From assembly GCF_036924595.1 (NCBI RefSeq), contig NZ_JAZHRV010000001.1, forward strand, positions 5,828,001 to 5,892,000: 64,000 nt of DNA. Reading direction: 5' to 3'. Below are positions 625 to 4,424 of this stretch, in pieces. This DNA is from Bradyrhizobium algeriense. GTDB lineage: Bacteria > Pseudomonadota > Alphaproteobacteria > Rhizobiales > Xanthobacteraceae. The position numbers were made by a program, and so were the translations under genes. The notes under the pieces were generated by a model that ran no database searches, had not been told where the DNA came from, and saw nothing but the letters and a program-made list of their open reading frames with translations. Position 1 is the stretch's first letter, and every line of letters starts with the position of its first letter.

Positions 625-1842
625 TTAGGGAGATCGTGCATTTCCAAGGGTTTGGAACAGCGTTTGTCGCCACCAATCGCTTTCGATCTGATCGAGCACG
701 GCGAGATCGAGCATTGGCCGCAAGGTACTGCCCTTCGGCAGCACGATTGCATAGCTCTCGCTGCTGAAGCTGGTGTCGACAATACGAACCGAGGCCGAGA
801 AATCCTTCCGGACGGTCCAGGTCAGAAGCGGTTTGTCATGGACGAAGGCATCGATCGCGCCGCGGCTCAATGCAGATAGGCCGCTTTGAGGGTCCGGAAA
901 TGCTCGAAAGGAAAGTTGCTGACGAGTTAGGTAGTCGGTTGTCGCAGAGTTCGCGACGGCGCCGACGCGCACGGATCGTAAGTCGTTGAAGCCGTGAACG
1001 GCGCCTTCGAGCCCTCGGCGCGTGAGGGTGGAGGTGATACCTGCGGTGAACACGGCTATGGCGATGACGGAAGCGATCATCCACCCGGTTGCGACGATTC
1101 GCCCTGGAAGAGTTGCCGGCGCATTCTGAGCAGCTCCCGCCTGTGTCATGGCGATAGTCGACCACCAGAAGCTGGAGCCGAGCCCCTTGGCTCCTCCGCC
1201 GAAATGTTCCGTTTTCCGGCGTTCCAGTAGCCAAATGAGGAAGCCGACCGCCATCGCAAAACAAAGCAGTACCGCGACAGCCTGGAAGAAGCCGAAGGAA
1301 AGAAGTGCCCGCCCGATCGATACCCAGGCGCTTTCATTGATGGGCACCGCAATCCCAAGTCCGGTGTTGTAGAAGGGTTGCGTAAAATCGACGCTGCGTG
1401 CGCGCCCAGCGGTCACAGTTACTGCCGCGACACCGGCGTCAAGGGTGCCCTTCGCGACGTCATCCAGCAGATCCTGCACGTTCTGGGTCTCGACCAAGCG
1501 AAAGCGCAGATGCGCTCCAGCAGCGATTTTTCTCCAAAGTTCGATGCTGATACCGCCCCAGCTCCCATCCGGCTGCTTCATCGCGAAGGGCGGGGCCTCC
1601 TTGGTCGCCACTACCAATTCTCTGTCAGGGACTGTGCCTTGGGCTCGAACGGCGTTGCAGTCGAGCGCAAGCACCGCCAGCGACAGAACGCATAGCAGGA
1701 GCGGTCGAACTGACGAAATCGCTGGTTTGCCTTGAGAGGCCCGATCTCGCCGCGCTAAACGGCTAAGGGCTTCCGGAGCGAAATCCAGCCCGTCAGAAGC
1801 GCCACGGTGCGGGACTGCCGGAGATTCCTCGAACGAACTCAT
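625..1842 (-). CDS. ionotropic-glutamate-receptor-like protein: periplasmic amino-acid-binding domain split by a channel pore
   Basis: About 405 residues. An N-terminal segment with a signal-like helix (residues 45-65) is followed by half of a type II solute-binding domain (S1, about 76-170, with TAGRARSVDF, where the Arg aligns with the one that holds the ligand carboxylate). Then come a membrane helix (183-206), a re-entrant pore loop (224-245), a second helix (248-274, ending FTAGITSTLT) and the second lobe (S2, with AIDAFVHDKP). This is the order of GluR0-type prokaryotic receptors. The pore reads MTQAGAAQNAP where potassium-selective members have MTTVGYGDxxP, so the filter is not a potassium filter. 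I chose ATG 1842 because AAGG lies 8 bases upstream; ATG 1905 lacks a site. It may be a channel of other selectivity or a non-conducting receptor. Confidence 0.75.
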   Translation of the reverse strand: MSSFEESPAVPHRGASDGLDFAPEALSRLARRDRASQGKPAISSVRPLLLCVLSLAVLALDCNAVRAQGTVPDRELVVATKEAPPFAMKQPDGSWGGISIELWRKIAAGAHLRFRLVETQNVQDLLDDVAKGTLDAGVAAVTVTAGRARSVDFTQPFYNTGLGIAVPINESAWVSIGRALLSFGFFQAVAVLLCFAMAVGFLIWLLERRKTEHFGGGAKGLGSSFWWSTIAMTQAGAAQNAPATLPGRIVATGWMIASVIAIAVFTAGITSTLTRRGLEGAVHGFNDLRSVRVGAVANSATTDYLTRQQLSFRAFPDPQSGLSALSRGAIDAFVHDKPLLTWTVRKDFSASVRIVDTSFSSESYAIVLPKGSTLRPMLDLAVLDQIESDWWRQTLFQTLGNARSP

Positions 1843-2251
1843 AGCGGACCTTAACTTAATACGTATTGGAGATCGGCCGACGGAAGCATTGCTATTTGGC
1901 GGCATTTCGTCATCAGGCGGAGCGCCGACCAGTTCGGCCCGATGCGGAACCGACGCGCCGGAACGAGGTCAAGCTTTCGAGAAGCGGTGACGCGGTGAAT
2001 ATCGGCTTCAACGTACGCTCAACCCGCCCCTCCGCCGACCCATAGCAGACCAATTCAACTGTTCCTTGGGAACTCGTCGCACCTATGGCCGGCGTATCCC
2101 CGTAACCCTTGAAGAATGGATGGCGCACCTTGCTCTCGGCTGACCTGACCGGTACTCGATCTCGGCGAGCAGCTCGGGCTCTACCCAGTGCCCTTATGGG
2201 CGATGCTGACCTGTATCGACGCGAGCGCCTTAACAGCAACTACGGATTAAC
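1843..2251. other. intergenic, about 400 bp, nothing assigned
   Basis: This region should contain the promoter of the reverse-strand receptor-like gene; I could not pick a convincing -35/-10 pair. A reverse frame (2239 to 1913, 108 codons) is open but arginine/serine-rich, and resembles no family I know. Confidence 0.3.
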
Positions 2252-3336: not shown

Positions 3337-3443
3337 GTCATTGCCTGCGACAAACGCGAAGCGTTTGCGCAAGGGAGCGAAGCGACGAAGCAATCCATTC
3401 TTTCTTTACAGCCTGTGGATTGCTTCGCTTCGCTCGCAATGAC
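3337..3443. repeat. inverted repeat, gcaatgac family, copy 1
   Basis: It begins gtcattgcctgcgacaaacg and ends gattgcttcgcttcgctcg-caatgac; the ends are complements of each other. Two further copies occur at 9390-9498 (reversed) and 23475-23580. Confidence 0.75.
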
Positions 3444-3455
3444 GGCGCCGCCGCC

Positions 3456-3635
3456 TCACCCCGACCGGCGGTTGCTCGTGTTCTGCGTCATGTTGCCGTG
3501 CTCGGCCTGTTCGCGGATGTTGTTCTTCTCGTCGTCGCGATGGCCCTTGGTGGTATCGAGCGGAACGCTGGGCGCGCTGCCGGGGCCCTTGTGGCTCTGG
3601 TTATCTTGCGGGACGGGCGGAACGGGTTTCGTCAT
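3456..3635 (-). CDS. small hydrophilic conserved hypothetical protein (59 aa)
   Basis: The reverse frame begins MTKPVPPVPQDNQSHKGPGS and is Pro/Gln/Asn-rich and polar throughout (KGHRDDEKNNIREQAEHGN), with no membrane segment or cysteine. Sequences of this type are common as single small genes in Bradyrhizobium. Two adjacent ATGs exist (3638 and 3635); I chose 3635 because GGAG sits about six bases upstream of it. Role unknown; the composition suggests an intrinsically disordered protein. The overlapping forward frame (3420-3974) is the shadow. Confidence 0.7.
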   Translation of the reverse strand: MTKPVPPVPQDNQSHKGPGSAPSVPLDTTKGHRDDEKNNIREQAEHGNMTQNTSNRRSG

Positions 3636-3974
3636 CATGGTCTCCGTTATCAATCGAAAGCAACGCCGGCCGTGGAGGGATCGTTCCCCGGAACGGTTGC
3701 ATGCAACGGCGCATGCATTGTCGCCGGCCGCAAAAACCCATGCCACCGATTTCGGCGCGGCTCGGTGATCTTCGAACAGAAGGACGCCCCCGGAAGCGGC
3801 GCTCGGAAAGCAATAAGATACCGCCCCGCGCCCCTTCCCGCCGCACGGCCCGTAGCAGTGAACCATTTCGAAACCATCGCGACAGATACTTTAGTTCCTT
3901 TGGCTGATACTTCTGCCGTTCCGTTCACAATGGGGCCGGCCGCAAGAGCCGATCGAGCACAGGTAGGTGGGCGA

Positions 3975-4424
3975 ATGACCGAGGGATCAAATCGTCAGCA
4001 CGTGCTGGATTTCCTCAACGTCCTGTATTCCGGCGATGTCGAGGCCGCGCTGGAGCGCTGCACCGACGACATCGAATTTCTCGCCAACGCCCCGATCGAC
4101 ATCCTGCCGCACATGGGCCATCGCCGCGGCAAGGCCGAAATGCGCGAGATGTGGAATGCGGTGCGCGCCCGCTATTCCGAGCTGCGCTGCGAGGTGCCGA
4201 TGCTGGTCACCGAGAACGACAAGGCGTCCGCGTTCATCCGCGTGTTCTTCCGCAAGAGCATCAATCAGCGCATGGTGCAGTTCGACATCGCCGGCTTCTA
4301 CACGCTGCGCAACGGCAAGATCAGCCATATCAGGGAAGTCATCGACACCTTCGATCTGGTCCAGCAACTGCTCGAACGCGATATCGCCGCGATCCTGACC
4401 GGCAGGCGGCCGGACCCGATCTAG
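3975..4424 (+). CDS. NTF2/SnoaL-fold protein, first of two related copies
   Basis: 149 residues. The sequence has the cone-barrel SnoaL layout: an N-terminal helix (HVLDFLNVLYSGDVEAAL), a strand with the hydrophobic pocket (APIDILPHMGHRRGKAEM) and a C-terminal sheet ending HIREVIDTFDLVQQLLERD. Proteins of this fold are enzymes or ligand-binding modules, and sequence alone does not give the substrate. I placed the start at ATG 3975; the same frame is open upstream to 3420, but that part overlaps the small gene on the other strand and looks random. A related gene lies at 5115, sharing PID-x(4)-G-x-RRGKA and DTFDLV-x-Q. Confidence 0.8.
   Translation: MTEGSNRQHVLDFLNVLYSGDVEAALERCTDDIEFLANAPIDILPHMGHRRGKAEMREMWNAVRARYSELRCEVPMLVTENDKASAFIRVFFRKSINQRMVQFDIAGFYTLRNGKISHIREVIDTFDLVQQLLERDIAAILTGRRPDPI

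Follow-up and report, generated by a model that had tools for sequence, protein, structure and literature searches.

The window analysed here, a stretch of 64,000 nucleotides from Bradyrhizobium algeriense (contig NZ_JAZHRV010000001.1, positions 5,828,001 to 5,892,000), carries close to its start a gene for a receptor channel of the glutamate-receptor type, whose selectivity filter reads TQAGAAQ where potassium (K+) channels have TVGYGD. The gene lies at 625..1842 on the minus strand and encodes 405 amino acids (the coordinates include the stop codon); the plus-strand frame over this interval contains several stops. The start codon is the ATG at 1840-1842: the string ATGAG(T/C)TCGT is retained in 14 of 14 aligned close rows (the window included, some being the same species from two collections), and upstream gaps of 1 to 9 bases shift several rows (e.g., L005, L007 and L010) out of a longer frame.

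The protein has the complete S1-M1-pore-M3-S2 layout of GluR0-type receptors, as an earlier note on this DNA had proposed and as both Pfam and an AlphaFold2 model confirm; the coding strand is our addition. All features that follow lie on the minus strand. A signal-peptide-like hydrophobic helix (residues about 46-68, 1639..1707; helix 46-65 in AlphaFold2), almost at which the orthologue L010 starts, is followed by the S1 half of the ligand-binding domain (residues 74-171, 1330..1623), and the S2 half lies at residues 280-401 (640..1005), both halves being delimited by Pfam and the structure model. Between them AlphaFold2 places the M1 transmembrane helix (residues 183-207, 1222..1296), the pore helix (residues 218-233, 1144..1191) and the M3 helix, which includes FTAGITSTLT (residues 245-279, 1006..1110). 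Seventy-three residues precede S1 and the protein stops 4 residues past residue 401, so that the 405 amino acids include neither the amino-terminal domain (ATD) nor the M4 helix of animal receptors; Pfam detects no extra signalling domain in them.

Three Pfam families score above their curated cut-offs, SBP_bac_3 (1.5e-17), Lig_chan (3.6e-14) and Lig_chan-Glu_bd, while Ion_trans is barely above (26.4 vs 25) and Ion_trans_2 (Ion channel) under it (16.2 vs 22.5 bits). The homologue search returned 1141 proteins at E <= 1e-3 from 8000 candidates scored, far beyond chance. The AlphaFold2 model, a monomer built from an input alignment of 86 sequences, has a mean predicted local distance difference test score of 86, with block means of 74-94 across residues 181-280. 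In it, two transmembrane helices and the pore helix sit between the S1 and S2 lobes, and the pore helix terminates at Met-Thr, followed by a loop at 234-244. The first 50 Foldseek rows are all AMPA receptor chains (best E 8.1e-22), with template-modelling scores of only about 0.45-0.57 because the lobes and the membrane part differ in placement. VIA-align ranks GluR0-type binding cores of Nostoc and Synechocystis at the top, via the binding domain, and aligns some NMDA receptor chains over 324-325 residues at a root-mean-square deviation of 7-8.

Both ligand-binding residues named in the earlier note are in place: the carboxylate-binding Arg of S1 (TAGRARSVDF) is Arg147 (1402..1404), and the amino-group-binding Asp of S2 (AFVHDKP) is Asp336 (835..837), their roles being taken from Ger et al. 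2010 (PMC2950845). Both are invariant in the 56 representatives, below 80% identity, of 218 rows picked by the Met-Thr-Gln/Arg pore described below.

The changed filter and its clade

The TTVGYGD of K+-type relatives aligns without a gap to the TQAGAAQ of the window protein, which translation and homologue alignment place at residues 233-239 (1126..1146, minus strand), where the earlier note had put it. The residue at the loop apex is Gln234 (codon CAG, 1141..1143, minus strand). Among the 120 nearest proteins (the best 120 of 1141), 107 read Met-Thr-Gln and 13 Met-Thr-Arg. A scan of GTDB genomes by S1 and S2 patterns found 145 relatives; in the best 80, which were opened, Met-Thr is followed by Gln in 77 loci and by Arg in three (one Gln row, L124, escaped the pattern script and was assigned by eye). 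A TVGYG filter occurs in none of these 120 proteins, in none of these 80 loci and not in the window protein. These two sets carry the claim, since the three pore positions are invariant among the 218 rows by construction.

The earlier note had asked whether close homologues keep TVGYGD, which would make this a single decayed copy. They do not: of 140 TVGYGD rows, the best match to the window protein has 47% identity over residues 74-401. When the closest TVGYGD protein from the class survey, L038, served as query, TVGYGD stood in 121 of 121 sequences (the 120 matches listed and L038 itself). The closest GTDB receptor protein, from Bradyrhizobium algeriense RST91, is 98% identical, and the titles of the relatives name Bradyrhizobium, Afipia, Rhizobium, Sinorhizobium, Kaistia, Microvirga, Ancylobacter, Roseomonas, Rhodopila, Pseudorhodoplanes, unnamed Hyphomicrobiales and two metagenome-assembled genomes (MAGs) labelled Verrucomicrobiota. 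The changed filter is thus, judging from the aligned pores, a trait of a whole clade rather than of one decayed copy.

A quick tree of 97 representatives, computed with the filter columns removed, groups 33 Gln/Arg rows and L160 in a single clade (Shimodaira-Hasegawa-like approximate likelihood ratio support 98). The next branch outward is L158/L159 (96), then the TVGYGD row L133 (98), amid other TVGYGD rows; many deeper forks are open. The direction from K+ type to Gln rests on this nesting because the root was not inferred. A careful tree computed from 41 rows, L160 not among them, supports the Gln/Arg clade at 99/95; Arg requires two changes there, one sufficing in 0% of 200 bootstrap trees. 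On these trees, Gln and Arg have been swapped at least twice within the clade.

Several relatives show other pores. L158 and L159, the sister group of the clade, have a filter that reads AAGHPHHKAP. In L160, a clade member with an open frame, a proline-rich sequence stands where the pore loop would be, and this looks like a true pore loss. A second class on its own branch (L022-L025, L030 and L128, from the genus of the window, and L026) has a filter two residues shorter, TLATQADQMPR, or TLLTQAEQAPR in L026. A separate long branch (L150, L172, L176-L178 and L180-L183) has SGK/SGR..KNLFGW (KNYFGW in two) past the filter position. One small genome of the class carries four clustered receptor genes (L034, L045, L046 and L047; G250, contig C64, 4287-9400) with LNEAGDVS and TSAN/TSEN filters.

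Correspondence with the Q/R/N site of animal receptors

The earlier note overlooked that the changed position, as aligned, corresponds to a known functional site. With phmmer, Gln234 stands without gaps opposite the Asn of LLNSGLGEGAP in GluN1 and opposite the second Thr of TMTTVGYGD in Kv2.1. In the alignment to GluA2 it faces the first Gln of MQQGC, a single gap following farther along, and in a weak alignment to GluD1 it faces the first Gln of VQQGG; the clade profile makes both pairings too. The first Gln of MQQGC is presumably the edited residue of the Q/R site: GluA2 chains 9ovv_B and 9z6u_B have Arg at the position aligned to Gln234, and 8p3x is among the entries whose titles say Q/R-edited. 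By these alignments, Gln234 is at the position of the Gln/Arg/Asn (Q/R/N) site of animal receptors (Gln/Arg in GluA2, Asn in GluN1). The Q/R/N site has been described as coinciding with the filter of KcsA and GluR0, and editing of Gln to Arg as reducing Ca2+ permeability (PMC3483616).

The Gln234 codon across 81 loci is CAG in 70 and CAA in seven, and the Arg codon is CGG in three (L124 is uncounted). All three Arg loci with DNA thus use CGG, while CAG prevails among the Gln loci; the other Arg group is known as protein. CAG and CGG are also the codon pair swapped by RNA editing in animals.

Common origin with the animal pore was considered and found unsupported. With the filter included, the pore profile of the TVGYGD type scores 42.2, 52.8, 32.3 and 63.4 bits on GluN1, GluA2, GluD1 and the plant receptor GLR3.4, against 38.2, 44.1, 28.1 and 57.7 bits for the Gln/Arg profile; with the filter masked, the values are 32.4, 53.8, 36.4 and 71.1 against 28.0, 36.7, 26.9 and 59.6 bits. 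The K+-type profile therefore outscores the Gln/Arg profile on all four ionotropic glutamate receptor (iGluR) fragments, a weak comparison given five short pore fragments and profiles of unequal size. A profile of a third class (LATQ type) also beats the Gln/Arg profile on GluA2, at 51.3 and 52.2 bits. Profiles of the two types run against Protein Data Bank (PDB) chains do not discriminate, because the K+ type is also higher on plain binding proteins. Since the scores carry no trace of common descent, or of a eukaryotic pore acquired from this clade, the Q/R/N likeness to animal receptors looks convergent. In five further sequences (L036, L037, L142, L143 and L167) the filters resemble VVNGGFEERMP (VTNASF in L143) with Asn aligned in the Gln234 column, and other alphaproteobacteria may therefore have an Asn-type Q/R/N site.

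Constraint, occurrence and neighbours

Besides the two ligand residues, Trp227 in the pore helix and Pro242, Gly247 and Arg248 are invariant in all 56 representatives. Fifty of them have Gln at residue 234 and six have Arg, whereas the positions below it vary: Ala (42) or Arg (8) at 235, Gly (39) or Ser (13) at 236, Ala (34) or Gly (17) at 238, and Gln (29), His (8), Glu (5) or Asp (4) at 239. The loop apex is therefore fixed and the lower loop variable. Charge compensation between 234/235 and 239 was examined and rejected, as the pattern is inconsistent.

Within Bradyrhizobium, no part of the protein compared is under stronger constraint than the pore loop. Across 24 sequences, the ratio of nonsynonymous to synonymous substitution rates (dN/dS; Nei-Gojobori, pooled pairs) is 0.027 for residues 225-249, compared with 0.110 for residues 74-401, 0.121 for S1, 0.147 for S2 and 0.106 for M1; it is 0.043 for residues 232-243 and 0.044 for 250-275, the short regions containing few sites. 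This low value weighs against lost conduction.

The receptor gene is single copy in its own genome (8.1 Mb, one contig), where a protein search gives two other, distant matches (27-28% over about 80-93 residues) and Lig_chan gives one. A class survey by Lig_chan found matches in 12 of 385 genomes, with the Met-Thr-Gln/Arg pore only in the own genome among the opened loci, and among 30 loci opened in an order survey only L155, L156, L157 and the fragment L162 are of Gln/Arg type. The Gln/Arg clade is rare beyond a few genera. In one MAG labelled Verrucomicrobiota, two receptor genes are adjacent (L107); mis-binning is possible there.

The neighbour layout was resolved in 72 of 81 loci and unresolved in 9; apart from the receptor, every family is confined to 12 of the 81 loci or fewer, which leaves no candidate operon partner. 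A heavy-metal P-type ATPase family (F5) adjoins the receptor gene in L062 of Bradyrhizobium as well as in six loci of the Rhizobium type, and a few other neighbour families are shared between two genera. Pfam was run on one window open reading frame (ORF) and on 19 proteins encoded one or two genes away from the receptor, drawn from 12 of the 80 GTDB loci. The neighbours include P450, integrase, SMP-30, phosphoglycerate dehydrogenase, P-type ATPase, alcohol dehydrogenases, the major facilitator superfamily and exonuclease, among others; four are unmatched. One N-formylglutamate amidohydrolase (L072) and one dipeptidase (L086), both single cases, might hint at amino acids. The nearby window ORF at 3420-4424 has a SnoaL-like domain in its C-terminal part. 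Upstream of the receptor gene, a 28-bp block (1884..1911, minus strand) is identical across close orthologues, faintly visible at a similar distance in some other relatives, and perhaps part of the promoter. As a regulon signal it was rejected: the own genome has only one site within 3 mismatches.

Readings of the pore and their significance

The window protein is, in our assessment, probably an amino-acid-gated cation channel that no longer selects for K+. This reading starts from computed results: the gene and its architecture, the ligand residues, the clade-wide loss of TVGYGD, Gln or Arg at the Q/R/N position and selection on the loop. From these we infer oligomeric state, gating, conduction, selectivity, ligand and physiological role. 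The receptor would sit in the inner membrane, most likely as a tetramer whose two-lobed binding domains face the periplasm. By analogy with the family, the lobes would close around a bound amino acid, either glutamate-like or of another polar kind, and thereby pull M3 open. The ancestral K+ filter would have been lost in an alphaproteobacterial clade, and the Gln (or Arg) at the loop apex would face the cavity, like that of animal AMPA receptors. Because the Thr-Val-Gly-Tyr-Gly backbone is gone, K+ selectivity is unexpected, and the nearest known behaviour of a pore with Gln at its apex is the non-selective cation conduction of AMPA receptors. The pore would thus most likely conduct Na+, K+ and perhaps Ca2+, so that ligand binding would depolarise the cell instead of equilibrating K+, and the Arg variants would be expected to admit less divalent cation. 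With no acid after the filter, a weaker polyamine block than in AMPA receptors (on the role of this acid, see PMC12226733) and perhaps weaker Ca2+ entry (see the GluN3 comparison in PMC11479355) are predicted.

Several observations weigh against this reading. Residues 234-243 have a mean entropy of 1.54 bits, the highest of eight regions compared between genera, against 0.36 bits for the same stretch in TVGYGD rows (themselves selected by filter); such variability exceeds what is expected of a filter that must hold bare ions. At the position after the filter, where TVGYGD has an acidic Asp, the window protein carries Gln, and just 9 of the 56 representatives have an acidic residue. The best full-length eukaryotic PDB match, plant GLR3.4, carries Phe at the site, which restricts the Q/R/N likeness to animal receptors. 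The gene is also patchy: a close copy (>=75% identity) occurs in 16 of 117 Bradyrhizobium genomes, the own included and one of them split into two ORFs (L019/L028, G110). In the same genus sample 23 genomes have a match at E <= 1e-20, seven of them only to a distant receptor (29-45%), a scatter that fits an accessory gene. One genome (G028) has pieces of an extra copy on contig C143 (L029 and L031-L033) and an intact copy on another contig; together with the split copy, this means that broken copies occur.

The variability of the lower loop also feeds the alternative that survives best, a non-conducting receptor that signals or buffers otherwise and keeps the pore domain as a scaffold. Drift of the lower filter (235-241) between genera would fit it, as would the proline-rich stretch of L160, an instance of pore loss in the family. 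Such a scaffold sits poorly with Met-Thr-(Gln/Arg) in all 120 nearest proteins and in each of the 80 best GTDB loci, with a loop dN/dS that is the lowest of the regions compared within Bradyrhizobium, and with a protein that has neither an added signalling domain by Pfam nor a neighbour family common to most loci; we consider it unlikely. The earlier note had left the choice between a new ion selectivity and lost conduction. The clade-wide occurrence and the constrained loop favour the former, and lost conduction becomes the less likely of the two, with the variability of 234-243 and L160 in its favour.

A wide or weakly anion-permeable pore, or one passing its own ligand or another small solute, is less probable still: the loop consists mostly of small residues and the Arg variants would place four charges at the narrowest point, but no result of the analysis favours solute permeation. 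That the protein is still a K+ channel, with a different kind of filter, we regard as very improbable. The first filter Gly is present in 39 of the 56 representatives (and in the window) and the second in 17, yet most rows have only one of the two and Gly-x-Gly is retained in 5 of 218; the Tyr and the Thr before Val are absent from all 218 Gln/Arg rows (the Thr by row selection). Least credible is an ordinary solute-binding protein of an amino-acid ATP-binding cassette (ABC) transporter, as the database name 'polar amino acid transport system substrate-binding protein' and the SBP_bac_3 matches to S1 and S2 would have it, since two transmembrane helices and a pore helix separate the lobes in the model, the 19 neighbours from 12 loci have no ABC permease domain (one is an ABC ATPase protein of 590 aa, L100), and NCBIfam importer models score well under cut-off (e.g., GlnH 79 vs 303 bits).

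The cation channel without K+ selectivity can be set beside known systems. The prokaryotic glutamate receptor GluR0 of Synechocystis (Slr1257) is K+-selective and has a K+ filter (PMC12332018, PMC13099474) where the window protein has TQAGAAQ; it has been expressed in an E. coli mutant impaired in K+ uptake and was assigned a physiological role in 2026 (both PMC13099474). Prokaryotic receptors numbered 23 in the count of Croset 2010 (PMC2924276), and of the 22 found by Ger et al. 2010, 12 had K+ filters and the other 10 had P regions that were not recognised (PMC2950845). These 10, their Group 2, resemble our clade, as compared by the group's description, in topology, in a pore region not of K+ type and in the conserved ligand Arg and Asp; their P regions are described only as showing no recognised similarity to a channel of known selectivity, and the available part of that paper names neither a Gln/Arg site nor this clade. 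Likewise, searches of the open literature on rhizobial or alphaproteobacterial receptors and on prokaryotic iGluRs showed no description of the Gln/Arg clade. Animal AMPA, delta and NMDA receptors share the fold of ligand-binding and transmembrane domains and have Gln, Arg or Asn at the Q/R/N position, but the window protein differs from them in having no ATD, no M4 and no post-filter acid, and in reading FTAGITST where they have SYTANLAA. The rotifer Adineta vaga offers the reverse combination in AvGluR1, whose layout is eukaryotic but whose filter is of K+ type (PMC12332018).

Animal glutamate receptors are believed to derive from a K+-selective bacterial type (PMC6385376, PMC11479355), and this clade may bear on how K+ selectivity was lost on the way. 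An extant bacterial clade whose TVGYGD relatives reach 47% identity seems to repeat the same change at the same place. The wider proposal is more tentative, and we hold it at slightly less than an even balance: starting from a K+-selective ancestor, an alphaproteobacterial clade of amino-acid-gated cation channels not selective for K+ would have arrived on its own at the animal solution, Gln at the Q/R/N site, and would have swapped Gln and Arg there in its DNA at least twice. The natural Gln and Arg versions of the clade, small and free of M4, would make both the step from K+ filter to Q/R/N site and the effect of Gln versus Arg directly measurable. Some rhizobial entries that carry the transporter name quoted above may be receptor channels, and if the proposal is true, bacteria own depolarising, perhaps Ca2+-admitting, amino-acid receptors.
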